64,000 bases of DNA, taken from NCBI GenBank assembly GCA_009840525.1, contig VXNP01000012.1:1-64000 (forward strand). The letters are read 5' to 3'. Below, one piece after another: positions 16,035 to 47,911 of this stretch. The notes under the pieces are model-generated. The model had not been told where the DNA came from, did not search any database, and saw only the letters and a list, made by a program, of their open reading frames with translations. Origin of the DNA: Gammaproteobacteria bacterium (lineage in GTDB: Bacteria; Gemmatimonadota; Gemmatimonadetes; Longimicrobiales; Gaopeijiaceae). The stretch's first letter is position 1. Every line of letters starts with the position of its first letter. Made by a program: the position numbers and the translations under genes.

Positions 16035-17815
16035 ACGACGGCACCCGGCGGAGGCTGTCGGCAGTTCCCTGGCTCGTGATCGGCACGGTGCTTGCCTTCG
16101 CACCTGCCACTGCGGACGGCCAGTTGTCCTCAAGCGAGGAATCCCGGCTGCTGCGCGAGGCCGCGCGCGCCGAGTCGGCGGGAGACTACGCCGCCTCGGT
16201 CGAGATCCTCACCTCGCTGTTGGCGGAGCGGCCTGCTTCCTCGGGAGCCATCTTCGCCCTGGAGCGCGTGCTGAGGGCACAGGGCCGGGTGTCGCAGGTT
16301 CTGGATCCCATAGACGCGTTCCTGGCGGTCGACCCTGTGTCCACCGGTCCCCGCTACCTCAAACTGAGGATACTCCTGGAGGTCGATTCCCTGGCTGAAC
16401 TGCGTTCCGCGGCGCAGTCCTGGATCGCGCAGAACCCGGCTTCGCCGGATTCCTATCGCGAAGTCGCGCGAGTGTACGAACGGGCGTTCGGGGGCGAGGA
16501 AGCTCTGTCCGTGCTTCGGCGGGGACAGAGCCGCGCGGCTGGTGGAGTCCTTGCGGTCGAAGCCGGAGATGTCCTGCTGCGCCTCGAGCGTCCCCTGGAG
16601 GCCCTGATGGAGTGGGCGCGTGCCCTGGACGGCCCGGATGCCCAGGCGCCCGGGGCCTTGCGGCGGATGGTGCGAACCGGTGGGGAGCATCCCGGGTTGG
16701 CACCCGCGGTGGTTCGCGAGCTGACGGCGGAAGGTGCGTCCGAAACCCGCAGGCGCGCGGCGATCGAAATCGCGCTCGAGGCTCGCCTGCAACCGGAAGC
16801 GCTGAGTCTTGCGGAGGAGATTGCAGGAGATCTTTCGGAGCGTGAGCGCGAGGGCTTCCTCAACGCATTGCTGCGGCTCGCCGAGGAAAAGGACGCCGAT
16901 CAGCTTGCGCTGTGGACGCTGCAGCAGTTGCGCCGGGAGACTCCGAGGGGTTCACGAGCGCGTACGCTGGATCGGCAGATCGCCGTCACTTCGCTCGTTG
17001 CCGGCGATACCGTGCGCGCGCTGGAGGCCAGGGAGCGGTACGCCCGCGGACTGCCCGAGCGCTCGCCGGAGCGGCGACGGGCTCTGGCCGAGATGATTCG
17101 ACTGGAGACGGCGACCGGCGCTCCCCTCGCGCTGCTCGACCGCTTCGCGGCCTTCCGCGAGGAGTTTCCGAACGCACCCGAAGCCGATCCGCTGGCGGTG
17201 GCGCTTTCGGCACGCTTCCGCGAGAACGGCGACCTGGAAACCGCGGCGTTTGTGCTGGAAGGAGTTCAGGGTCCGCTGAGCGCCCAGGAGCGTGCCTGGC
17301 TGGCTCTCGAGGCGGACAACCGAGAGAGCGCCCGGATCAATCTGATGCTCGCCGCGGGGGGACTGCCCGCGACCGAGGCCACGGCGATCGTGCAGCTGAT
17401 CGGCATCCTGGACCGGGTGGGCGAGCAGGCGGCCGCGCTGGCAGGCAGGGTGGCCATCGCGCGCCACAGGGAGGGCGCCGATGCGGCGTTCTCGCTGGTG
17501 AACGAAACGGTGCACGCCCTGCCGCCGGACGACCAGCCGCCCCTCCTCGCCATGGCCGCCCGCATCGCCGACGAAATCGACCAGCAGGGCGAGGCGGCGC
17601 GCCTGCGCGAGTCTCTGGCCGCCACCTTTCCGGAGTCGAGCGAGGCGCCGGAAGCCATCCTGCAGCTGGCCCGCTACCGGGCAGCCACCCCCACCGGCGT
17701 GCCGGCCGCCATCGAGTTGCTCGAGGAACTCATTCTGGCCCGCCCCAACAGCGCGGTCGTGCCGGTGGCCCGCCGCGAACTGGAACGCCTGAGGGCGTCA
17801 GGAGGTGCATCGTGA
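16031..17815 (+). CDS. Exported TPR-repeat protein
   Basis: A 594 aa protein with an N-terminal signal peptide (PWLVIGTVLAFAPATADG) and then nearly all-alpha sequence in short helix pairs of TPR type, for example ESAGDYAASVEILTSLLAE near the start and a TolA/YbgF-like ending with PNSAVVPVARRELERL. It is probably a periplasmic scaffold protein. GTG start overlaps the DUF4175 stop, and the stop overlaps the next gene's start, so all four genes of the cluster should be translationally coupled. No catalytic motif is visible. Confidence 0.82.
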   Translation: MNDGTRRRLSAVPWLVIGTVLAFAPATADGQLSSSEESRLLREAARAESAGDYAASVEILTSLLAERPASSGAIFALERVLRAQGRVSQVLDPIDAFLAVDPVSTGPRYLKLRILLEVDSLAELRSAAQSWIAQNPASPDSYREVARVYERAFGGEEALSVLRRGQSRAAGGVLAVEAGDVLLRLERPLEALMEWARALDGPDAQAPGALRRMVRTGGEHPGLAPAVVRELTAEGASETRRRAAIEIALEARLQPEALSLAEEIAGDLSEREREGFLNALLRLAEEKDADQLALWTLQQLRRETPRGSRARTLDRQIAVTSLVAGDTVRALEARERYARGLPERSPERRRALAEMIRLETATGAPLALLDRFAAFREEFPNAPEADPLAVALSARFRENGDLETAAFVLEGVQGPLSAQERAWLALEADNRESARINLMLAAGGLPATEATAIVQLIGILDRVGEQAAALAGRVAIARHREGADAAFSLVNETVHALPPDDQPPLLAMAARIADEIDQQGEAARLRESLAATFPESSEAPEAILQLARYRAATPTGVPAAIELLEELILARPNSAVVPVARRELERLRASGGAS

Positions 17816-19095
17816 ACGATTCTTCCCGATCGAGAGCCGGGCGATGCCTGGCCCGGACGACGCTGCTCGCGGCCCTGTTGCTGGCTCCGGCAGCCCTGCG
17901 GGCCCAGCATCTGCTGGTGCCGATGGACCAGGATCAGGACGATCACCTGAAGGCCTACGGCCTCACCTACTGGAGTCTCGAGCGGGGCGCGACCGCCGAG
18001 TGGCTGCTCAACTACCGGGACGGCGCCTTCCTCTTGCCGGACAGGCAGGACGTTCGTCGGGAAGCGGCGTTTCGCGGTGTCAGCATCGAGCCGGTGAGCG
18101 CCGCCGACGTAGCCGCGATACGCGCCCTGATCGCGCGCTCCAACATGGAGTCGGTGATCCTCGAGAAGGCGCCCAGCGTTGCGATCTACACGCCCGCCAA
18201 CACGACGCCCTGGGACGACGCCGTGACGATGGCGCTCGAGTATGCGGGCATCACCTACGACAAGGTCTGGGATCCGGAGGTCCTGAACGGGGATCTGGAG
18301 AACTACGAATGGCTCCATCTCCACCACGAGGACTTCACGGGCCAGTATTCCAAGTTCTTCATCACGTACGCGGGAGCTCCCTGGCTGCAGGAGGAAGTGG
18401 CCCGAAACCAGGAGGTGGCGACCGCGTTCGGATATCCGCACGTGCCCGCGCTCAAGAAGGCGGTTGCGAGCGTGATTCTGGACTACGTCGAGGCAGGCGG
18501 CTTCCTCTTTGCCATGTGCTCGGCAACCGAGACGCTCGGCCTGGCCCTGGCGGCCCGGGATGCCGACATCGCGGCGGCCTTCGCCGACGGGACCCCGCCG
18601 GCCCTCGACGCCTCGGCGCACATGCAGTGGGGCCGGGCGCTGGGGTTTCAGAACGCCGAAGTGCAGCTCTCTCCGTCGGTCAACGCGTTCAGCGACATCG
18701 ACGGTCATCAGGTCAATACGCCGTGGCGGGAAGAACTCGGCACGTTCTCGCTCTTCGAGTTCTCGGCCAAGCTGGATCCCGTGCCGTCGATGCTGACGCA
18801 GAGCCATGAGGATGTGCTCTCCGACTTCTACGGGCTCACCACGTCCTTCCGCCTGGACCGCATCAAGCCGGGCGCCATCGTCCTGGCGCAGGAGGGCGGA
18901 TGGGCCAAATACCTCCACGGGAACCGGGGCGAGGGAACCTGGACCTTCTACGGCGGGCACGATCCGGAAGACCCCGAGCACCAGATCGGCGATCCCCCCA
19001 CGGATCTTTCGCTGCACGCCAATTCGGGCGGCTATCGCCTGATCCTGAACAACGTCCTCTTCCCGGCGGCTCGCAAGAAGCAGCGCAAGACCTAG
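17812..19095 (+). CDS. Exported protein of unknown function, possible GATase1/ThuA-like fold
   Basis: A 427 aa protein with a clear signal peptide ending near LRAQH (about residue 32). The mature protein starts LLVPMDQDQDDHLKAYG, a segment I associate with proteins often labelled asparagine synthetase B in databases, although no asparagine synthetase domain is visible. Alternating strands and the turn GGFLFAMCSATETL, with a cysteine at a possible nucleophile elbow, suggest a class I amidotransferase-like or ThuA-like fold; this is inference. GTG start with GGAGGTG at 17801-17807, overlapping the TPR gene stop. It completes the cluster begun by DUF4159. Confidence 0.75.
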   Translation: MNDSSRSRAGRCLARTTLLAALLLAPAALRAQHLLVPMDQDQDDHLKAYGLTYWSLERGATAEWLLNYRDGAFLLPDRQDVRREAAFRGVSIEPVSAADVAAIRALIARSNMESVILEKAPSVAIYTPANTTPWDDAVTMALEYAGITYDKVWDPEVLNGDLENYEWLHLHHEDFTGQYSKFFITYAGAPWLQEEVARNQEVATAFGYPHVPALKKAVASVILDYVEAGGFLFAMCSATETLGLALAARDADIAAAFADGTPPALDASAHMQWGRALGFQNAEVQLSPSVNAFSDIDGHQVNTPWREELGTFSLFEFSAKLDPVPSMLTQSHEDVLSDFYGLTTSFRLDRIKPGAIVLAQEGGWAKYLHGNRGEGTWTFYGGHDPEDPEHQIGDPPTDLSLHANSGGYRLILNNVLFPAARKKQRKT

Positions 19096-19101
19096 CAGCC
19101 C

Positions 19102-21750
19102 GTGGATAACGCGGGCGGCAGGGAAGACCGACCTACGGACCTCCGCGCCGTGACCCCGGGGCGGTCTGGCCCCCGGCCGGATCTCGTCCTTGCTCCCGAG
19201 GCGGCGGGCCGCATGCGCGAGCAGATCGCGCGGGCGGGCGGGCGCGAGGTCAGCTTCCTGGCCACCGTGACGCCCGAGCGCGTCATCGTTGACCCGCGCA
19301 CCGTGGCCCGGGGCAACCGAGCCGCCGTGCTCGCCGCCGCCAACGACGCGCGCACCGGCGAGATCATGCTGCACAACCACCCCTCGGGGGTGCTGGAGCC
19401 CTCCGGCGCGGACCTCCATGTGGCCGGCCAGCTCTACGAGCAGGGCGTCGGCAGCGCCATCGTGGACAACCTGGCGCAGGCGCTGTACGTGGTGGTGGAA
19501 CCGCCGCCGCCGTCGTCGCACGAACCCCTGGACATCCCCGAGCTGGAGGCGGTGGCCGCCCCGGGCGGCGCCCTGTCGCGCCTGCACGGGCGCTATGAGG
19601 ATCGTCCGGGCCAGCGCGCCATGCTGGCGGAGGTGGCGCGAGCATACAACCAGGGAGGGGTGACCCTGGTGGAGGCCGGCACCGGCACCGGAAAGTCGGT
19701 CGCCTATCTGCTGCCCGCGGCCCACTGGGCGATCCGCAACAAGGAACGCACGATCGTCTCCACCAACACCATCAACCTGCAGGAACAGCTCGTCGCCAAG
19801 GATCTTCCCCTCGTGCGCGAGCTTCTGGGAGAGGACTTCCGCTGGGCGCTGATGAAGGGCAGGGGGAACTACATCTCCATCCGTCGCGCGCATCTGGCGG
19901 CGGAAGGCGCGGCCACCCTCTTCGAGGAGGACCGCACCCGCGAAGTCAACGGGCTGCTCGACTGGATCGCCGCGACGGAGGACGGATCGCTCGCAGACCT
20001 GGCGACTGCCCCGTCCCGGGAGGTATGGGAGGAAGTGCAGTCCGACTCCGACATCTGCCTGCACGCCCGCTGTCCGCACTTCCAGTCCTGCTTCTACCAG
20101 CGCTCGCGCCGGGTTGCGGCATCGGCCGACGTGCTGGTGGTGAACCACCACCTGCTCTTCTCCGACCTCTCTCTGCGCATCGTTACCGACAACTTCACCC
20201 AGTCCGCGGCGCTGCCGGCGTACCGGCGGCTGATTCTCGACGAAGCGCACAACGTCGAGGACGCCGCCACCAGCCACCTGGGTGCAAGCCTGAGCCGAAA
20301 AGGGCTGGGCGCCACGCTGACCCGCCTGGAGCGCGTGGCGGGCGTAGTGCGCCGCAAGCTCTCCGGCCTGCCCACGGCGACGAAAGGTGGCGTACGGCCG
20401 GAGGGCCCCCTGGCGGCTCCCGCCGCGAAGCCTCTTCTGGGCCGCCTGACGGACCGGGTACTCCCATCCCTCACGCAGGCGCGCGCGGAATTCCAGACCT
20501 TCTTCGAGATACTCGACGAAACGGCGTCCCTCGCCGGAGGCGTGCGCGTGAGGCTGGGTTCCGAGCAACTCCCCGAACCGATCGACCGGGCACGCGTCCA
20601 AGAGTACTTCGGTGCGCTGCTGGACGCGCTCGCGCGGCTGGCGAGCGAACTATCCGAACTGTCCTTGCGCATCGAACTCACCGACGAGTGGCGCGAACCG
20701 CTGGAAGGCAGGATCCTCGATCTGCGCAGCATTGAGCGCCGCCTGACTAATGCGTCGCGGAGCCTGCGCCTCGTCCTGGATCCTGGGGAAGACGGACAGC
20801 GATACGTTCGCTGGCTGGAGCAGAGAAGCGCCCGGCGCGGCAAACGGCGCAATCTGCACCTCGCCGCCGCGCCCATCGAGCTGGACGAACTGCTCAGGGA
20901 ACAGTTGTTCGAGCGTGCTCGCAGCACCGTGCTCACCTCCGCGACCCTGACCACGCGCCAGGATTCCAATTTTCTGCGACGACGTCTCGGGCTCGCCCGC
21001 GAAACCGGGGGCGCGCACGCTCTGAGAGTCGTTGAAGCACGCATCGACTCTCCTTTCGACTTCGGTGCGCAGACCCTGCTTTGCGTCCCGTCCGACCTGC
21101 CCCGGCCATCGTTCGGAAGTGGGGCGGGAAGCGGCTCGTTCGATCGTGCCACGGCACGCGCGGTGGCCGCGCTTGCCGACATCTCCGGGGGTGGGCTGTT
21201 CGCCCTTTTCACCTCGCATCGATCCCTGCGCGCCGTGGCGAAGGCGCTTCGGGCGGAGGGAGCGGGATCCTGGCCGCTGCTGGTGCACGGCGAGGATGAC
21301 CGGTCCCGGCTCCTGGCCCGTTTTGTCGAGGCGGGCAACGCCATCCTGCTGGGAACGTCCTCCTTCTGGGAGGGCGTGGACGTGCCCGGCCGCCCCCTGC
21401 GCGCGCTGCTCATCCAGAAGCTTCCGTTCAGCGTCCCCACGGATCCCGTGGTCGAGGCACGCATGGAAGCCATCGAAGCGGCCGGAGGAAACCCCTTCCA
21501 GGAGCTCATGCTGCCACAGGCAGCGCTGCGTCTGCGCCAGGGATTCGGTCGCCTGGTGCGCTCGCGCCGGGACCGGGGCGCCGTGGTGCTTCTCGACTCC
21601 CGAATCGTCAAGTACCGATATGGCCGGTATTTGCTCGAGTCCCTCCCCCCGGCGCCGCTCGCCCACGGGCCCTGGCGCCGCGTCGAGGAGTACTTGCGCG
21701 CATTCTACGAGGCCGCGGGCGAACCGCATGCCGCGCAACAGGCGGGATAG
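19102..21750 (+). CDS. JAMM/RadC-like domain fused to DinG-family helicase
   Basis: An 882 aa two-part protein. Residues about 25-135 form a JAB/MPN (RadC-like) domain with an intact JAMM signature: E49, H91-x-H93, S101 and D104. Residues about 160-880 form an XPD/DinG superfamily 2 helicase with Walker A EAGTGTGKS (191-199), DEAH at 380-383 and the C-terminal QGFGRLVRSRRDRG motif. The Fe-S region keeps C319, C324 and C330, but the expected first cysteine, in the GRGNYxC position, is S259. GTG start at 19102 without a clear ribosome binding site; ATG at 19213 is possible but would cut into the JAMM domain. Probable role is DNA repair or replication-fork processing. Confidence 0.88.
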   Translation: MDNAGGREDRPTDLRAVTPGRSGPRPDLVLAPEAAGRMREQIARAGGREVSFLATVTPERVIVDPRTVARGNRAAVLAAANDARTGEIMLHNHPSGVLEPSGADLHVAGQLYEQGVGSAIVDNLAQALYVVVEPPPPSSHEPLDIPELEAVAAPGGALSRLHGRYEDRPGQRAMLAEVARAYNQGGVTLVEAGTGTGKSVAYLLPAAHWAIRNKERTIVSTNTINLQEQLVAKDLPLVRELLGEDFRWALMKGRGNYISIRRAHLAAEGAATLFEEDRTREVNGLLDWIAATEDGSLADLATAPSREVWEEVQSDSDICLHARCPHFQSCFYQRSRRVAASADVLVVNHHLLFSDLSLRIVTDNFTQSAALPAYRRLILDEAHNVEDAATSHLGASLSRKGLGATLTRLERVAGVVRRKLSGLPTATKGGVRPEGPLAAPAAKPLLGRLTDRVLPSLTQARAEFQTFFEILDETASLAGGVRVRLGSEQLPEPIDRARVQEYFGALLDALARLASELSELSLRIELTDEWREPLEGRILDLRSIERRLTNASRSLRLVLDPGEDGQRYVRWLEQRSARRGKRRNLHLAAAPIELDELLREQLFERARSTVLTSATLTTRQDSNFLRRRLGLARETGGAHALRVVEARIDSPFDFGAQTLLCVPSDLPRPSFGSGAGSGSFDRATARAVAALADISGGGLFALFTSHRSLRAVAKALRAEGAGSWPLLVHGEDDRSRLLARFVEAGNAILLGTSSFWEGVDVPGRPLRALLIQKLPFSVPTDPVVEARMEAIEAAGGNPFQELMLPQAALRLRQGFGRLVRSRRDRGAVVLLDSRIVKYRYGRYLLESLPPAPLAHGPWRRVEEYLRAFYEAAGEPHAAQQAG

Positions 21751-22095: not shown

Positions 22096-22184
22096 AAGGC
22101 CGAAACCGCACGCGGGTGCTGCCTCGGGCGGGTCCCGATTCGACCTCTGCTCACCTCAACCACGGAAAGCACGGGCGCCTCCCC

Positions 22185-22823
22185 ATGAGCCTGAAGCATA
22201 TCCCTACCAAGATCGTGTGCGTTGGAAAGAACTACGCGCTCCACGCACAGGAATTGGGCACCGAGGTTCCCCCTGAGCCGATCATCTTCCTGAAGCCGGT
22301 TTCCTCCCTGCTGGCCTCCGGCGAAACCATCCGGATGCCTTCGTGGGCCGGGCGGGTGGACTTCGAGGGAGAGATCGCGTTGGTGGTCGGGAAGCGTGCC
22401 CGCGGGGTGGCGCGCGAAAATGCATGGGACGTGATCGATGCCGTCGTGCCGCTGAACGACGTGACCGCGCGCGAGCTGCAGCGCAGGGACGGACAGTGGA
22501 CGCGCGCCAAGAGCTTCGACACCTTCTGCCCCGTGGGTGAGCCGGTCCCGGTAGCCGACGTGGATGTCGGCCAGCTCGAGGTGATCACGCGCGTCAACGG
22601 GAGCGTGCGCCAGCACGCCCATGTGGACACGATGGTGTTTCCGATCCCCGAGCTGGTCCGCTTCATCACCGCGGTCATGACGCTCGAGCCGGGAGACCTG
22701 ATCGCGACCGGCACGCCCGACGGCATCGGCCCGCTCGCTCCCGGCGACCGGGTCGAAGTCGAGATCCCGGGCGTGGGAATCGTGGCCAATCCGGTGGCGG
22801 CCGAGGAGGTCGATTCGAGCTGA
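22185..22823 (+). CDS. Fumarylacetoacetate hydrolase (FAH) family protein
   Basis: A 212 aa protein with the single FAH fold of the acylpyruvase/fumarylpyruvate hydrolase group. Motifs include CVGKNYALHAQE at the N-terminus, FLKP, the metal-binding DFEGEIALVVG, the NDVTARELQRRDGQW segment, and the GDLIATGTPDGIGPL loop. The enzyme hydrolyses or decarboxylates beta-keto acids; the exact substrate is unclear. An open frame extends upstream to 21960, but the ATG at 22185 starts the family-like sequence. The stop overlaps the next start by 1 bp (TGATG). Confidence 0.9.
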   Translation: MSLKHIPTKIVCVGKNYALHAQELGTEVPPEPIIFLKPVSSLLASGETIRMPSWAGRVDFEGEIALVVGKRARGVARENAWDVIDAVVPLNDVTARELQRRDGQWTRAKSFDTFCPVGEPVPVADVDVGQLEVITRVNGSVRQHAHVDTMVFPIPELVRFITAVMTLEPGDLIATGTPDGIGPLAPGDRVEVEIPGVGIVANPVAAEEVDSS

Positions 22824-26379: not shown

Positions 26380-28103
26380 TCCGCGCATTCCAAGCGTCGC
26401 GGGGCAGGGGCCCGGGGCGGACGCTCTTCCTGTTTCTCCCTCTGCTCGGCGCGCTGGTGTCGGGGTGTGCGCGCGAGGCGACGCCTCCCGGCGGCCCTCC
26501 CGACCGGCTTCCCCCGATCGTGATCCTGAGCGAGCCGGATACCTTCTCCACCGTGGAGCCCTTCCGTTCTCCGGTGACCCTCCGCTTCAGCGAGCGGATC
26601 AGCGAGCGGCCCAGCTCGGGCACCCTGGACCAGTCGGTGGTGGTTTCGCCGTCCTCGGGCGAAGTGCGGGTGTCGCACGGGCGCGAAGGACTCACGGTGC
26701 GCGCGCTGGGTGGATTCGAGGCCGGGCACATCTACCGCGTGACCGTCCTGCCGGTCATTCAGGACATGTTCGGCAACGCCCTTCAGGAGCCCTTCGAACT
26801 GTTTTTCTCGACCGGGCCGGAGTTCACCCCCAACGTCGTCGCCGGCTCGGTCATCGACCGGCTTACGGGCGAGCCCCTCCGTGACGCGCGGGTGGATGCG
26901 GCGGTCGCCGAAAGCGACGTGGTGCACACCGCCGTCACCGACAGTGCGGGGATCTTCGCGCTGCGCTACCTGCCGGCGGGCGACTATGTGGTGAGCGCGT
27001 ACCTGGACCGCAACCGGAACGCCCAGCCCGACTTCACCGAGCCCCAGGGAACGCGTCCGGCTCCATTGAACGGCGGTGGCGAAGCCGCCGACACCACGAT
27101 CGTGCTCGAGGTCGCGCTGCTGGCGCGGGACACCACCTCGGCGCGGCTCGCGCGCGTCATCGTCGAGGATTCCATCAGCCTGGGCGTCTCCCTCGACGAC
27201 TACCTCGATCCGGAACTCCCGCTGGACGACGTGCGCGTCGTGGTCACTTCCGACAGCGTTGACGCGCCCGGAGCCCTGGCCGTCCTCCATCAGCACGAGG
27301 CGGACGCCTATCGGAGCGCGCTGGCCGACAGCCTCGCGCGGGAACAGGCGGTCCGGGACAGCGTGGCGCAGGCGCAGGCGGATTCGGCGGCCCGGGCCGA
27401 AGCGGCCGCGGGCGATACCACGGCGGCAGTGGATCCCGGGGACGCACGCGGGCCGGCCGAGACGGAACCCGACCCGCCGCCGGTTCAGGCGGAGCAGGAC
27501 GCGTCAGAAGCCGGGGAGGCGGAAGAACGGCCCACGGCGCAGCAGACATTCATCGTCATCCTGGACGGAGTGCTGGCCCCCGACGTGCCCTACGAGGTAG
27601 AGATATCGAACATCACCAACATCAACGGCGTGGGGGGAGGCGGGGGAACCGTCGGCTTTACGCGCCCCGCCCCGCCGCCGCCGCCCCCCGAAGACACCAC
27701 GCAGGCCGAGGCGGACAGCGTTGCCACGGATACCATCCCGGCGCCTCCGGGCGACACGCTCACCGTCCCGGCGGATTCAGCCGTGCGCGACACCATTCCC
27801 GCGGCAGCTGGCGTCCCCGGGGAAGCGGCGCCCGGCGACACGCCTGCCGTCCCGGCCGACTCGACTGCTCGCGACACCATTCCGCCGCCTCCGGCCGACT
27901 CCGCCCGCAGGGACACGATCGCCTCGCAGGCCGCCGACTCCGTGCGCCGCGACACGGTATCGGCCCTACCCGTTGATTCGTCACGCCGCGGCACGGTCGC
28001 GATCCTCCCGGCCACGGACCTCCTCCGGCGTGGCAAGAGCGTCCGGATGCTGCCGGCACGGAGGCGGTTCTCCCGCGACGATCCGTCCGGCACGGTTCGA
28101 TGA
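26376..28103 (+). CDS. Ig-like domain lipoprotein with tandem-repeat tail
   Basis: A 575 aa predicted lipoprotein with lipobox L-V-S-G-C (C31). Residues about 45-150 resemble a bacterial Ig-like (SbsA/Big_5 type) domain: PPIVILSEPD, RFSERI, and GNALQEPFELFFSTG. A carboxypeptidase-regulatory-like beta domain follows at about 155-260 (GSVIDRLTGEPLRDARV, YLPAGDYVVSAYLDRNRN). The C-terminal third is Ala/Asp/Pro/Thr-rich and carries the 13-residue repeats annotated separately. A GTG start overlaps valS. It is probably an outer-membrane surface or periplasmic protein. The bulk of the long open frame upstream lies over valS and is not real. Confidence 0.8.
27711..28010 (+). repeat. Tandem 13-residue repeats in Ig-like lipoprotein
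   Basis: Six imperfect copies of a unit close to A-D-S-x-x-R-D-T-I-x-x-x-P (39 bp) lie near the C-terminus of the lipoprotein. The first two copies carry insertions and the last is degenerate (VDSSRRGTVAILP). Copies three to five are adjacent and in phase. The composition (Pro, Asp, Thr, Arg) suggests an extended, disordered linker. Confidence 0.7.
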
Positions 28104-29494
28104 CCGACCCGCGCCGCCACCTGCCGAGCGTCGACCGCGCGCTGGCCTCTACCGCCTTCGCCGCGCTGCTCGCCGCCCATCCGCGCCAGCGCATCCTCCA
28201 CCATCTGCGCCTGGCGCTGGACCACGCCAGGGAGGATCTCGCGCGCGGAACCGGCCACGCGCCGCCGAACGTCGGCGACCTCGCCGGCGAGGTCGAAAAG
28301 GCGCTGGTCCTTGACGGCATCCCCTCCCTCCGGCCGGTGATCAACGCCACCGGCGTGGTGCTCCACACCAACCTGGGCCGGGCGCCCATCGCACCCGCCG
28401 CCCGCTCCGCCATGGCTCGGGCCGCGCGCGGGTACGGCAACCTGGAGTTCGACCTGAAGCGCGGGAGCCGGGGGTCGCGCTACGTGCACTGCGTACAACT
28501 CCTGCGGGAGCTCACCGGGGCCGAAGCCGCGCTCGTGGTCAACAACGCCGCCGGCGCACTGGTGCTGGGCATGAACACCCTGGCGGTGGGGAAGGAGGTG
28601 GCGGTCTCGCGGGGAGAACTGGTGGAGATTGGAGGCGGCTTCCGCATACCGGAGATCCTGGTCCGCAGCGGCGTCCGTCTGCGCGAGGTGGGCTCCACCA
28701 ACCGCACCCGCATCGCCGACTACCAGGCAGCGCTCGAAACCGGCGAGGTCGCGGCGCTGCTCAAGGTGCACCGCTCCAACTTCCGCATCGAAGGGTTCAC
28801 CGAAGAAGCGGGCGTCGCCGAGCTGGCGGAGCTGGCCGATCGCCTGGGGGTCCACTTCTTCCACGACCTGGGCACCGGGTTGATGATGGACTCCGCCGCG
28901 CTCGGCCTTCCGGGAGAACCGCGGGTGGCCGACAGCCTGGCGAACGGTGCTCACGTGGTCGGCTTCTCGGGGGACAAACTGCTGGGCGGGCCGCAGGCGG
29001 GGATTCTTGTGGGACGGAAAGAGCCGATCGCGAGGATGCGGCAGAACCCGCTCTGCCGCTCCCTGCGCGTCGACAAGGTGACGCTGGCGGGGCTGGAGGC
29101 GACCCTGCGTCTCTACAGGGATCCCGGCCGCGCCCTGAGGGAGATCCCGGCGCTGCGCATGATCGCTGCTTCTCCGGAAGAGCTGCTCGATCGGGCCACC
29201 CGCCTCGCCGCCGCTCTGGAAGCCCGCGGCGTGCCAGCCCGCGTGAGTCCCGGAACCTCGCTCGTGGGGGGCGGAACCTGTCCGGGGGTCGCCCTCGACA
29301 CCTTCGTCGTGGAACCGGACACCGGCGCGCGGTCCGTGTCCGCCGTCGCCGGGCGCCTGAGACGCGGCGATCCGCCGGTGCTCGCGCGCGTGGAGGACGA
29401 TCGCCTCGGCGTCGATCCCCGCACAGTCGAGCCCGAAGAAGAGTCCCTGCTCGTCGAGCGGGTTGTGCGCGCGTGTTCTCGGGACGAGGATTGA
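28100..29494 (+). CDS. selA: L-seryl-tRNA(Sec) selenium transferase
   Basis: PLP enzyme that converts Ser-tRNA(Sec) to Sec-tRNA(Sec) using selenophosphate. The 464 aa protein has the N-terminal helical domain (LPSVDRAL), the INATGVVLHTNLGRAP motif, and the PLP lysine K293 in FSGDKLLGGPQAG. This implies a selenocysteine system elsewhere in the genome; selB, selC and selD are not in the window. ATG at 28100 overlaps the lipoprotein stop as ATGA. Confidence 0.95.
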   Translation: MTDPRRHLPSVDRALASTAFAALLAAHPRQRILHHLRLALDHAREDLARGTGHAPPNVGDLAGEVEKALVLDGIPSLRPVINATGVVLHTNLGRAPIAPAARSAMARAARGYGNLEFDLKRGSRGSRYVHCVQLLRELTGAEAALVVNNAAGALVLGMNTLAVGKEVAVSRGELVEIGGGFRIPEILVRSGVRLREVGSTNRTRIADYQAALETGEVAALLKVHRSNFRIEGFTEEAGVAELAELADRLGVHFFHDLGTGLMMDSAALGLPGEPRVADSLANGAHVVGFSGDKLLGGPQAGILVGRKEPIARMRQNPLCRSLRVDKVTLAGLEATLRLYRDPGRALREIPALRMIAASPEELLDRATRLAAALEARGVPARVSPGTSLVGGGTCPGVALDTFVVEPDTGARSVSAVAGRLRRGDPPVLARVEDDRLGVDPRTVEPEEESLLVERVVRACSRDED

Positions 29495-40283: not shown

Positions 40284-41576
40284 ATGGCCTACCCCTACGT
40301 GCACGAGCGCGAGGTGCGCATGATCTCCCGCAACTTCGGGGATCCCGGGGCGCGCACGCTCGACGGATACCGGGAGCGGGGCGGATACATGGGGCTCGAG
40401 CGGGCCTTCGAGATCGGGCCGGCCGCGGTGATCGACGAAGTGAAGGCATCGGGACTGCGGGGCAGGGGAGGGGCGGGTTTTCCCACGGGGCTCAAGTGGA
40501 GCTTCATGCCGAAGGCCGGGATCAAGCCGCACTACCTGCTGTGCAACGCAGACGAATCGGAGCCCGGAACCTTCAAGGACCGCGAGCTGATTCGCTGGGA
40601 TCCCCATCAGTTGATCGAGGGGTGCCTGATCGCTGCGTATGCGATGGGCTCGCGGCACGCCTACATCTATCTTCGCGGCGAGTTCTTCGAAGCCAGCCAG
40701 GTCATGGCGCGGGCGGTCGAGGAGGCGTACGAGCGAGGGTTTGCCGGGCGCCGCATCCTGGGCTCGGGAAACGACATCGAGGTGACCGTGCACGTGGGTG
40801 CCGGGGCGTACATCTGCGGTGAAGAGACCGGCCTCATGAACTCCCTCGAGGGCCGCCGCGGGGAACCGCGGGTGAAGCCGCCCTTTCCGGCCGCGGTGGG
40901 CGTCTATTCCATGCCCACCACCATCAACAACGTCGAGACCCTGGCGGCCGTGCCCCACATCGTGGAGCACGGAGGGGAGTGGTACCGGCAGTGGGGCACC
41001 GACAAATCCCCCGGCACCAAGCTCTTCTGCGTGAGCGGCCATGTGGAGAAACCCGGCAACTATGAGCTGCCGCTGGGCTTTCCGATGATGGAGCTGATCG
41101 AGGACGTGTGCGGCGGCGTGGCCGAAGGACGGGCGCTCAAGTCCGTGATCCCGGGCGGCAGTTCCGTTCCGCTCATGGATGTGGAGGATTGCCGGGAATG
41201 CACGCTGTGCTATGAGGGGGTGGAGGCCGCCGGTTCGATGCTCGGCTGCGCCTCGGTCATCGTGATGGACGATCGCACCAACATCGTGCGCGAGGTGCGG
41301 CGCATGGTGCAGTTCTACGCGCACGAGTCGTGCGGGCAGTGCACGCCCTGCCGCGAGGGCACCTCCTGGATGACGCAGGTGCTTCGCCGCATCGAAGCGG
41401 GCCGGGGCACCGAGTCCGACCTGGACACCCTGCTCGACATGAGCGCCCAGATGACGGGCACCACCATCTGTGTGCTGTCCGATTCGGCGGCGGCTCCGGT
41501 GGTCTCCTCCATCGAGAAATTCCGGGACGAATACCTGGCCCTGATCCACGGCGCCGAGAGAGCGGAGGTCGCGTGA
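40284..41576 (+). CDS. nuoF: NADH-quinone oxidoreductase subunit F
   Basis: Flavoprotein subunit that oxidises NADH; 430 aa. FMN/NADH-binding GRGGAGFPTGLKW is near residues 55-67, ICGEETGLMNSLEG lies mid-protein, and the N3 [4Fe-4S] ligands are in ESCGQCTPCREG plus the late TICVLSDSAAAP cysteine. The ATG directly follows the nuoE stop. The stop overlaps nuoG as GTGA. Confidence 0.96.
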   Translation: MAYPYVHEREVRMISRNFGDPGARTLDGYRERGGYMGLERAFEIGPAAVIDEVKASGLRGRGGAGFPTGLKWSFMPKAGIKPHYLLCNADESEPGTFKDRELIRWDPHQLIEGCLIAAYAMGSRHAYIYLRGEFFEASQVMARAVEEAYERGFAGRRILGSGNDIEVTVHVGAGAYICGEETGLMNSLEGRRGEPRVKPPFPAAVGVYSMPTTINNVETLAAVPHIVEHGGEWYRQWGTDKSPGTKLFCVSGHVEKPGNYELPLGFPMMELIEDVCGGVAEGRALKSVIPGGSSVPLMDVEDCRECTLCYEGVEAAGSMLGCASVIVMDDRTNIVREVRRMVQFYAHESCGQCTPCREGTSWMTQVLRRIEAGRGTESDLDTLLDMSAQMTGTTICVLSDSAAAPVVSSIEKFRDEYLALIHGAERAEVA

Positions 41577-43165
41577 GCACCGTCACCCTGACCATCGACG
41601 GCCGCGAGGTCACGGTCCCCGAGGGCACCTCGCTGCTGCATGCGGCCGAGGAGATCGGCGTGGAGGTGCCGCACTACTGCTATCATCCGGCGCTGTCCGC
41701 GCCCGCCCAGTGCCGCCTCTGCCTGGTGGACGTGGAGGGCGCGCCCAAGCCCATGCCCTCCTGCGTCACTCAGGCCCAGGACGGCCAGGTGGTGCGCACC
41801 GACGAGGGGCTGGCGCGCGAGATGCGCAAGGGCGTGCTCGAGTTCTACCTCGTCAACCACCCGCTGGACTGTCCCATCTGCGACCAGTCCGGGGAGTGCA
41901 AGCTGCAGGACTACGTCCACTCCGAGGGCCGCGCGCACGGCCGCGGGGTCGAGCCCAAGCGTGTGTTCGGCCGCGACGACTTCGGGGGCGACGTCCTCTT
42001 CTACGGCGACCGCTGCGTCATGTGCACCCGCTGCGTGCGCTTCATGGAGGAGATGGCCCAGGATCCCGTGCTGACCGTGGTCGAGCGCGGCGACCGGGCG
42101 GTCATCGACACCTTCTTCGAACAGGGGCTGAAGGACTCCCCCTGGTCGGGCAACATCGTCGACATCTGCCCGGTGGGAGCACTGGTCTCGAAGGACTTCC
42201 TGCACAAGGCGCGCGCCTGGGACCTCGACCACACCCCGTCCGTCTGCCCCAACTGCTCTCAGGGGTGCAACGTCGACCTCCACACCCGCGACAACGTGGT
42301 GCATCGGCTCAAGCCGCGGGAAAACCCCGAGGTCAACGGCCACTGGATGTGCGACTACGGCCGCGGCCACTACGAGTGGATGAACCGGAGCGACCGGATC
42401 GAGGAGCCCTTTGTGCGAGGGGACGGCGGCTGGTCGGCGCCCGGATGGCACGGAGCTCTCGCCTCGTTGCGGGAGCGGTTCGAAGATCGCCGCGGCCCCG
42501 TCCACGCCGTCGCTTCCGCACACGCATCCAACGAAGATCTGGGCGCCTTCCGGGAACTGGTGGAGCGCCTTGGCGGACAAGGTGTCGTGTACCGATCGCG
42601 GCGGGCTGCGGACGAGGCCCCGCTGCCCGGCTCCCCCGTGCTGGCCCGTCGCCGCGACCTGGCGCCCAACACCCGCGGCGCCGAACTGCTGGGGATGCGC
42701 CGGGTCGGAAGCGACGACGCCCGCGGAGGGCTGGACGAGGTGGCGGCGAGCACCGGCACGCTGATCGTGCTGGGCGACGAGCTGACGGACCAGCCGGAGG
42801 ACTTCGGCTCGCGTGCGGAGCTCTTCGTATATCTCGGAACCCACCCGGCGCCGGCTGCCCGCAGCGCGCACTTCGTGCTCCCGGTCACCACCTTCGCGGA
42901 GCAGGAGGGGACCTTCACCAACGTGCAAACCCGGGTGCAGCGCTTCGAGCCCGCTCTCAGGGGTGCCGGGAACGCCCAGCCGGCGTGGCAGGTGCTCGGC
43001 GCACTGACCGCCTCCCTCGCCGGAGAACCGGCGCCGGCGAGCGCGGCCGAGTCGTTCAGCCGGCTTGCGGCACGGGTGCCGGAGTATGAGGGGCTCGACT
43101 ACGACCAGCTCGGCGCCCAAGGGGTGCCAGCCAATCGTCCCGCGGCCATCGCGGGAGAACGATGA
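41573..43165 (+). CDS. nuoG: NADH-quinone oxidoreductase subunit G, short form
   Basis: Multi-cluster Fe-S subunit of 530 aa. N-terminal [2Fe-2S] ferredoxin region: YCYHPALSAPAQCRLC plus SC. A 3Cys-1His cluster: HPLDCPICDQSGEC. A ferredoxin pair: CVMCTRC, CPVGA. A molybdopterin-type [4Fe-4S] motif (N7-like) is present at CPNCSQGC with a later MCDYGR. The molybdopterin-like domain that normally follows is strongly shortened and diverged compared with 680-900 aa family members. GTG start overlaps nuoF. Confidence 0.94.
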   Translation: MSTVTLTIDGREVTVPEGTSLLHAAEEIGVEVPHYCYHPALSAPAQCRLCLVDVEGAPKPMPSCVTQAQDGQVVRTDEGLAREMRKGVLEFYLVNHPLDCPICDQSGECKLQDYVHSEGRAHGRGVEPKRVFGRDDFGGDVLFYGDRCVMCTRCVRFMEEMAQDPVLTVVERGDRAVIDTFFEQGLKDSPWSGNIVDICPVGALVSKDFLHKARAWDLDHTPSVCPNCSQGCNVDLHTRDNVVHRLKPRENPEVNGHWMCDYGRGHYEWMNRSDRIEEPFVRGDGGWSAPGWHGALASLRERFEDRRGPVHAVASAHASNEDLGAFRELVERLGGQGVVYRSRRAADEAPLPGSPVLARRRDLAPNTRGAELLGMRRVGSDDARGGLDEVAASTGTLIVLGDELTDQPEDFGSRAELFVYLGTHPAPAARSAHFVLPVTTFAEQEGTFTNVQTRVQRFEPALRGAGNAQPAWQVLGALTASLAGEPAPASAAESFSRLAARVPEYEGLDYDQLGAQGVPANRPAAIAGER

Positions 43166-44421
43166 ACGAACTCTCGCCGACGGCCTTCCTGATCGCCGCC
43201 GCCGTCAAGGTGCTGGCCGTGTTCACGGCGCTGATGGTGGCGATCATGTACGCCACCTGGGCCGAACGGCGCCTGTCGGCCTTTATCCAGGATCGCCTGG
43301 GACCGAATCGAGTAGGCCCGTTCGGACTCCTGCAGCCCATCGCCGACGGCCTCAAGAACATCATCAAGGAGGAGACCGACCCGGCCACGGCATCGCGCTT
43401 CTTCTTCGTTCTGGGGCCGATGCTGTCGATCATGCCGGCGCTGGTCACCTTCGCCGTGATTCCCTTCGCCGCCCCGCTGCCCACGCCATGGGGGACGGTG
43501 GACATGATCGTCGCAGACCTGCCGGTGGGGGTGCTCTACATCCTCGCCATCGGCTCGCTCGGGGTGTACGGGATCTTCCTGGGCGGGTGGTCATCCAACA
43601 ACAAGTACGCGCTTCTGGGCGGCCTGCGCGCCTCCGCCCAGATGGTGAGCTACGAGGTCGGGCTGGGGCTCTCGCTGATCCCGGTCTTGATGCTTGCGGG
43701 CAACGTCACCCTCACCCGGATGGTCGCCGATCAGCAACTGGGGCTGTGGTACATCCTCCCCCTGTCGCTCGGCTTCCTGCTCTTCCTCATCTCGGCGTTC
43801 GCGGAGACCAACCGGCTGCCCTTCGACATGCCGGAAGCCGAGTCCGAGCTGGTGACCGGATACCACACCGAGTACTCGTCCATGAAGTTCAGCATGTTCT
43901 TCATCGCCGAGTACGCGCACGTGATCACGGCCTCGGCGCTCATGGCCACGCTCTTCCTGGGAGGATGGGACATCCCCTTCTGGTCGGGGGACAACTTCAT
44001 CCCGTACGAGGGCGGCCTCATCTCCGGGTTTACCGCGGCGGGCGACCCCATCCCGGCGCAGTTGTCCATCTGGACCACGCTGCTCACCCTGGGCGCCTTC
44101 ATGCTCAAGACCACCTTCTTCGTGGTCCTCTACATCTGGGTGCGCTGGACACTGCCGCGCTTCCGTTACGACCAGGTCATGCACCTGGGCTGGAAGGTGA
44201 TGCTGCCCACCGCGCTCGCCTACGTCATGCTCGTGGGCGCCACCATCCTGGTGTTGGATCAGCTGGGGGTGTCCGGCGGACCGGGCTTCGCCCTGGCGCT
44301 GACCGGAGTGAGCCTCGTCGCCACCGCCATGTTCGCCCTCTACCTCGACCGCGGCCGCATCATTACCGGGGCCGCGCCAGCCGGACGGGCCGCGCGCCCG
44401 GCGCCGGCCGCCCACCCATGA
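43162..44421 (+). CDS. nuoH: NADH-quinone oxidoreductase subunit H
   Basis: Membrane subunit at the joint of the hydrophilic and membrane arms, with a role in quinone binding and proton coupling; 419 aa with about eight transmembrane helices. Motifs: ERRLSAFIQDRLGPNRVGPFGLLQPIADGLK near residues 33-63 and AETNRLPFDMPEAESELVTGYHTEYSSMKF. ATG at 43162 overlaps nuoG. A Pro/Ala-rich tail ends the protein. Confidence 0.96.
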   Translation: MNELSPTAFLIAAAVKVLAVFTALMVAIMYATWAERRLSAFIQDRLGPNRVGPFGLLQPIADGLKNIIKEETDPATASRFFFVLGPMLSIMPALVTFAVIPFAAPLPTPWGTVDMIVADLPVGVLYILAIGSLGVYGIFLGGWSSNNKYALLGGLRASAQMVSYEVGLGLSLIPVLMLAGNVTLTRMVADQQLGLWYILPLSLGFLLFLISAFAETNRLPFDMPEAESELVTGYHTEYSSMKFSMFFIAEYAHVITASALMATLFLGGWDIPFWSGDNFIPYEGGLISGFTAAGDPIPAQLSIWTTLLTLGAFMLKTTFFVVLYIWVRWTLPRFRYDQVMHLGWKVMLPTALAYVMLVGATILVLDQLGVSGGPGFALALTGVSLVATAMFALYLDRGRIITGAAPAGRAARPAPAAHP

Positions 44422-44437
44422 TCCCGCGGGAGTCGCC

Positions 44438-44938
44438 ATGGCCATATCGGTGAAGGTGATACGCCGGCCCGAAGCGGCCCGGAGCTCGTACCTGAGAGCC
44501 GCCCTCAAAGGGATGTCGCTGACCTTCCGGCACATGGTCAACCCGCGCAAGGTGACGCGCAGCTATCCCGAGGAGCCCACGGAACTCCATCCCCGCTGGC
44601 GCGGCACCCACCGAATGGAGGTGCACGCCGACGGGCGCCCGAAGTGCGTCGCCTGCGGCCTCTGCCCCACGGTCTGCCCGGCCAACTGCATCCGCCTGGT
44701 TGGCGGCGAGGACGATCAGGGCAACCGCTACCCCATCGTCTACGAGATCGACGAGTTCCGCTGCATCTTCTGCGGGATGTGCCAGGAGGTGTGCCCGGTG
44801 GAGGCGATCCATGTGGGCCAGCACTTCGAGAACGCCGAGTACACGCGCGAGCGCTTCGTCTACGACCTCGACCGGCTGATGGAGCAGGAGCATCCGGTCA
44901 CCGCGCTCTGGGACCCCTCCGACCCCGCATCGGAGTGA
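44438..44938 (+). CDS. nuoI: NADH-quinone oxidoreductase subunit I
   Basis: Ferredoxin-like subunit carrying clusters N6a and N6b; 166 aa. Two [4Fe-4S] motifs are complete: CVACGLCPTVCPANC near residues 70-84 and CIFCGMCQEVCPVEA near 109-123. ATG at 44438 follows nuoH by 16 bp with GGGAG as ribosome binding site. An acidic C-terminal tail ends it; nuoJ begins 4 bp later. Confidence 0.95.
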   Translation: MAISVKVIRRPEAARSSYLRAALKGMSLTFRHMVNPRKVTRSYPEEPTELHPRWRGTHRMEVHADGRPKCVACGLCPTVCPANCIRLVGGEDDQGNRYPIVYEIDEFRCIFCGMCQEVCPVEAIHVGQHFENAEYTRERFVYDLDRLMEQEHPVTALWDPSDPASE

Positions 44939-44942
44939 GGGG

Positions 44943-45467
44943 ATGGAGCTGATCCTCTTCTACGTCTTCGCCGTGACCGTGGTGGGCGGAGGCATCGGGG
45001 TGGTGGCGAGCCGGAATCCGGTGGCCAGCCTCATGTTCATGGTGGTGTCGCTGGCGAGCGTAGCCGGGATCTACGTGCTCCTGGAAGCGCACTTCCTGGC
45101 CGCCATCCAGGTCATGGTCTACGCCGGCGCCATCATGGTGCTTTTCCTGTTCGTGATCATGCTCCTGAACCTGGGGCACGACTACCGGGACGACCTGGTG
45201 CGCGGACTCTACGCCGTGTGCGCCTTCGTCGTCTCGGGGGCGATCTGCGGCATCCTTGCGACCCGTTTCGGCGGCACTGAGACCAGCCCGCTGTACGAGA
45301 GCTTCCCCGGCGCGGCGGCGATGGACCTGGAGCTGGCCGAACGGGGTGCGGTGTCGCTCATCGCGCGCCCGCTCTTCCAGGAATACGTGGTTCCCTTCGA
45401 GATCACCGGAATCCTGCTGCTGGTCGCGGTGGTAGGCGCCGTCGCGCTGGCGAAGAAGCGGGTATGA
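44943..45467 (+). CDS. nuoJ: NADH-quinone oxidoreductase subunit J
   Basis: Membrane subunit of complex I, 174 aa with five predicted helices. The family segment [52 protein letters not shown] is present, including the conserved [17 protein letters not shown] stretch. The C-terminus ends in [18 protein letters not shown], typical. Positioned between nuoI and nuoK in the canonical order. Confidence 0.95.
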
Positions 45468-45477
45468 GGAGCGCCGC

Positions 45478-45771
45478 GTGCTGACCGAGGCACTGACCAC
45501 CAGCGCCCTGCTGTTCGTGATCGGCACCTTCGGGGTGCTCGTGCGCCGGAACGCCATCATCATGTTCCTCTGCATCGAGCTCCAACTGAACGCAGTGAAC
45601 CTGGCGCTGGTGGCCTTTTCCCGGTACGTGGGCGTGGAGGGACAGGTATTCGTCTTCTTCGTCATGACGGTGGCGGCCGCGGAAGCCGCGGTCGGGCTCG
45701 CGATCATCATCTCCATCTTCCGGCACTACCGGACCGTCAACGTGGACAATTTCAACCTGCTCAAGTGGTAG
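45478..45771 (+). CDS. nuoK: NADH-quinone oxidoreductase subunit K
   Basis: Small MnhC/NuoK-type membrane subunit, 97 aa with three helices. The conserved glutamates lie in [20 protein letters not shown] and in the [19 protein letters not shown] region. The start is a GTG at 45478 with GAGGAG upstream. Ends two bases before the stop-ATG junction with nuoL. Confidence 0.95.
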
Positions 45772-45775
45772 TTGG

Positions 45776-47911
<2,136 letters not shown>

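Follow-up and report, generated by a model that had tools for sequence, protein, structure and literature searches.

What does a RadC-type JAMM domain do at the N-terminus of a DNA helicase? RadC is widespread, and the question is raised by a gene in the window, the stretch of 64,000 nucleotides analysed here (contig VXNP01000012.1, positions 1 to 64,000). A single open reading frame on the plus strand (window positions 19102-21750, GTG start at 19102, stop at 21750) encodes a protein of 882 amino acids, in which an N-terminal RadC-like JAMM domain is followed by a complete DinG/XPD helicase. The first-pass annotation had described one 882-residue frame carrying these two parts, which the open reading frame and Pfam matches confirm, and had named the JAMM residues E49, H91, H93, S101 and D104, each of which is found at exactly that position. 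The features discussed below are as follows.

17806 to 19095, plus strand: conserved upstream gene, no family assigned, adjoining dinG in most relatives
19102 to 21750, plus strand: RadC-like DinG, a JAMM-helicase fusion of 882 amino acids (open reading frame, Pfam, NCBIfam, relatives)
19183 to 19503, plus strand: RadC-like JAMM/MPN domain, residues about 28-134 (Pfam RadC over residues 60-114; profile and fold matches to 2qlc)
19246 to 19248, plus strand: JAMM glutamate E49, invariant in alignments A1 and A3
19372 to 19413, plus strand: JAMM motif HNHPSGVLEPSGAD with H91, H93, S101 and D104 (aligned relatives)
19504 to 19590, plus strand: linker, residues about 135-163, continuous in an alignment of 26 relatives, from which its coordinates are inferred
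19591 to 20286, plus strand: helicase motor domain 1 with Walker A (GTGTGKS) and DEAH box (Pfam, alignments; boundaries approximate)
19876 to 20091, plus strand: iron-sulphur region with ligand positions S259, C319, C324 and C330 (SCCC; alignments)
20902 to 21711, plus strand: helicase motor domain 2 (Helicase_C_2; PF13307 over residues 691-850, E 3.5e-44)
22170 to 22823, plus strand: downstream FAA-hydrolase-family gene, start approximate (PF01557, E 4.1e-64; synteny)

The fusion is genuine and not an artefact of assembly. The protein was found in 57 of the 59 close relatives and in 167 of the 200 phylum genomes sampled; in both sets, nearly all of the matches listed extend into the JAMM domain. 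Among 70 distinct loci compared across the class, 60 encode an in-frame fusion in which none of the five JAMM residues is missing. Although the unusual architecture might suggest two separate genes merged at the linker by an assembly or frameshift error, this explanation can safely be dismissed, as the in-frame fusion and its conserved linker are shared by tens of genomes from separate assemblies. Outside the Gemmatimonadota, the fusion was reached here only in Fusobacterium. The named records of the fusion are Gemmatimonadota, some of which carry a Gammaproteobacteria metagenome-assembled genome label, probably a matter of labelling. Rfam and tRNA scans of the window gave no match.

The N-terminal domain belongs to the RadC-like JAMM fold family, and its ligands are conserved. 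The Pfam RadC model (PF04002) matches residues 60-114 with 24.4 bits, above its cut-off of 22.1, and the H91-x-H93-x10-D104 spacing agrees with the JAMM consensus E...HxHx10D. E49, H91, H93, S101 and D104 are invariant among 24 aligned relatives; this, together with their retention in 60 of 70 loci, indicates that the motif did not arise by chance. In a profile comparison of the JAMM domain, RadC (2qlc) was matched with an E-value of 2.9e-7 and AfJAMM with only 0.4, over the motif. A model of the isolated domain, built from 55 sequences, has a mean pLDDT of 89.5, and its first Foldseek match is again 2qlc, followed by Caldiarchaeum Rpn11, CSN5, PfJAMM1 and bacterial BubCD structures. These fold matches are moderate (TM-scores of 0.44-0.61; rmsd mostly 4-7 Å, 12.6 Å in one case), so the model backs the fold family rather than fine geometry. 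Sequence and domain model together thus provide the glutamate, the HxHx10D array with its serine and the MPN fold that characterise JAMM metalloproteases. Relatives from other genera that retain the motif share about 46-72% amino acid identity with the window protein in the JAMM domain, a level close to that of motor domain 2, which argues that the domain is under real constraint. Metal binding and hydrolysis by the domain are predicted from the motif.

The remainder of the protein is a helicase of the DinG type. Pfam matches comprise DEAD (PF00270), DEAD_2 (PF06733) and Helicase_C_2, while the first match of the full AlphaFold2 model (mean pLDDT 81.5) is E. coli DinG (6fwr, E 9e-40), with XPD structures also listed. 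Walker A, the DEAH box and the cysteines C319, C324 and C330 are invariant in the 24 aligned relatives, and the residues of Walker A, DEAH and motif VI are conserved in nearly all aligned rows. The iron-sulphur domain has three cysteines and one serine as ligand positions; this SCCC set, in which the first cysteine is replaced by serine, occurs in all sampled members of the three families from the window's order (f1-f3), and the class-level families f4-f6 have a CCCC set, as does Fusobacterium. By family membership, the protein would be expected to act as a 5′-3′ DNA helicase.

The architecture itself is already published. RadC-DinG fusions were cited in a 2017 paper (PMC5512222), and "RadC-like DinG" is a named subgroup in a 2025 review by Cheng (PMC11981726). 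The fusion does not, as the first-pass annotation had held, newly join two families; what stands of that interpretation is that a RadC-like JAMM domain, ligands intact, is genuinely fused to DinG. According to the review, the subgroup (for example in Desulfuromonas soudanensis) has a RadC-like domain with an E/H/H/D centre, in which a Zn ion was modelled, followed by a YoaA-like helicase whose iron-sulphur domain has 3-4 cysteines, and no HolC in the genome; the review states that no experimental work on it exists. The window protein likewise carries the RadC-like domain N-terminal to the helicase in one chain, with E49, H91, H93 and D104 as the conserved residues and three cysteines plus a serine in the iron-sulphur domain, and a HolC profile (PF04364) finds no homologue in its genome, with E. 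coli as a positive control. Its SCCC set differs from the CCCS and CCHC variants mentioned in the review, and neither Gemmatimonadota nor Fusobacteria are named in the review's main text (PMC11981726). The best NCBIfam match, the YoaA/DinG equivalog NF053712, scores 543.9 bits against a cut-off of 680, and the HolC partner of YoaA is lacking. Motor domains, iron-sulphur region and arch are shared with DinG/YoaA (6fwr), to which the window protein adds the N-terminal JAMM domain. With canonical RadC (PF04002, NF000642; 2qlc) it shares the fold and the motif HNHPSGxxxPSxxD, but the helix-hairpin-helix part is replaced by the helicase, and the RadC equivalog NF000642 is matched with 24.8 bits, below its cut-off of 180. 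ExoDinG, EndoDinG and pExoDinG also place an enzyme domain N-terminal to the helicase, and dead versions occur there too (PMC11981726), but that domain has an exonuclease or endonuclease fold instead of a JAMM domain.

The reading to which we give about an even chance is that this chromosomal RadC-like DinG combines a helicase with a probable Zn hydrolase whose substrate would, as a best guess, be a nucleic-acid end or adduct. The C-terminal XPD/DinG-type ATP-dependent DNA helicase would use single-stranded DNA as its loading site and open forks or R-loops. The RadC-type JAMM domain, attached to motor domain 1 by a short linker, would most likely be a metal-dependent (Zn) hydrolase acting on something that the helicase exposes or brings close. 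A nucleic-acid-linked substrate is slightly favoured over a protein because the JAMM domain occupies the position of the exo- and endonucleases in ExoDinG and EndoDinG (PMC5512222; PMC11981726). Confidence in such a substrate is moderate, since the fold evidence points to peptidases: the top Foldseek matches of the model, which include RadC and JAMM peptidases, would disfavour it, and DALI searches in the review returned metalloproteases and no nucleases (PMC11981726). It also counts against such a substrate that all biochemically characterised JAB enzymes are peptidases of ubiquitin-like proteins (PMC5512222).

A possible though unlikely alternative is that the N-terminal domain is mainly a structural or binding module, comparable to MPN-minus domains, with a structural metal bound at the conserved ligands. 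Such a role would fit the loci that keep the domain without its motif. The 70 loci comprise 60 with an intact motif, four with a degenerate one and six without a recognisable JAMM domain (L046, L047, L049, L050, L051 and L052). The degenerate copies read KHRLE (L068), SIHSE (L053), RLQSE (L048) and, in Fusobacterium, SRTSE (L066) at the five JAMM positions, and a parallel is offered by pExoDinG with its dead exonuclease (PMC11981726). Against a mainly structural role, the 60 intact loci keep all five residues, including E49 and S101, for which a role in catalysis is expected. The JAMM domain of the four degenerate copies, with 46%, 30%, 21% and 14% identity to the window, has also diverged faster than the motors, as expected after loss of function, and the three in Gemmatimonadota (L068, L053 and L048) come from genomes that are no larger than 2.0 Mb and have no standalone RadC. 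In L047, a SHOCT-like DUF1707 segment replaces the JAMM domain in the same frame, behind a putative start codon. The L066 record (NZ_CP084075.1) is circular, 2.1 Mb long and filed as a plasmid, and looks chromosome-sized.

The helicase ATPase residues are intact in all ten loci with a degenerate or absent JAMM domain. In the helicase tree these loci fall in several separate places, which points to at least four events of loss or degeneration, although long branches leave the exact number uncertain. Repeated loss from a helicase with intact motifs argues that the predicted JAMM catalysis is accessory and not obligately coupled to unwinding. Dependence of the fusion's JAMM domain on a standalone RadC was suggested by three RadC-less genomes with a degenerate fusion (G023, G162 and G172), but was rejected as a rule: in genomes of genus g24 the single RadC match is the fusion itself wherever its place is listed, with an intact motif seen in one of them (G033, locus L019), and Fusobacterium has RadC yet a degenerate fusion.

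It is unlikely that the JAMM domain is instead a peptidase, cleaving DNA-bound or crosslinked proteins that the helicase would meet and unfold, by analogy a one-chain counterpart of FANCJ, of the XPD family, and SPRTN. The matches to RadC and zinc JAMM peptidases are consistent with this alternative, as is the sequence of events in which FANCJ unfolds protein adducts that SPRTN then cuts (PMC12279946); DinG belongs to the same helicase family as FANCJ, and XPD structures are among the matches of the model. However, characterised JAMM enzymes cut isopeptide or peptide bonds beside ubiquitin-like folds, not proteins in general. The authors of the 2017 paper argued that RadC lacks the groove for a ubiquitin tail and is probably nucleic-acid-processing (PMC5512222), an argument that also weakens the earlier suggestion of a ubiquitin-like tag as the substrate. 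A literature search found no link between RadC and DNA-protein crosslinks, and just one paper in which both terms occur, each a single time. The specific proposal of a bacterial one-chain helicase-metalloprotease for proteins stuck on DNA, analogous to FANCJ plus SPRTN with JAMM in place of the SprT protease, is quite doubtful.

The chromosomal neighbourhood of the gene is conserved. The upstream gene, whose protein has no Pfam or NCBIfam match, ends 6 bases before the fusion gene; the FAA-hydrolase-family gene and, further downstream, ValS follow, and this gene order is kept in most relatives. A mobile or defence context was rejected on the basis of these housekeeping-type neighbours and their conserved synteny. 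Among phage records, none of the best 10 of 42 matches extends into the JAMM domain; the JAMM domain alone had no plasmid match, and the full protein found the degenerate version in the chromosome-sized Fusobacterium record filed as a plasmid. On this evidence, the fusion gene appears to be chromosomal and vertically inherited, and not part of a defence island or a phage. The same genome encodes a separate canonical RadC with the HNHPSG motif on another contig (C29), and no other full DinG was found in it, a weak Helicase_C_2 match on contig C112 being a different helicase. Elsewhere in the window, a selenocysteine synthase gene, selA (28100-29494, PF03841), suggests that the genome may use selenocysteine, and Complex I (Nuo) genes with matches of the NuoF, NuoH and NuoL type lie at 40284-47911.

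The analysis adds to the published architecture the repeated loss of the JAMM motif, the SCCC set in the window's order, and the conserved neighbourhood with a separate canonical RadC. The main-text passages available from the review (PMC11981726) do not mention JAMM loss with an intact helicase, the SCCC set or the neighbourhood. The same helicase with an intact, a degenerate or no JAMM domain offers a natural series for comparative tests, and the presence of a RadC-type domain on a DNA helicase makes RadC testable with DNA substrates. If true, the proposal of a one-chain helicase-metalloprotease would assign a function to JAMM domains of the RadC type.
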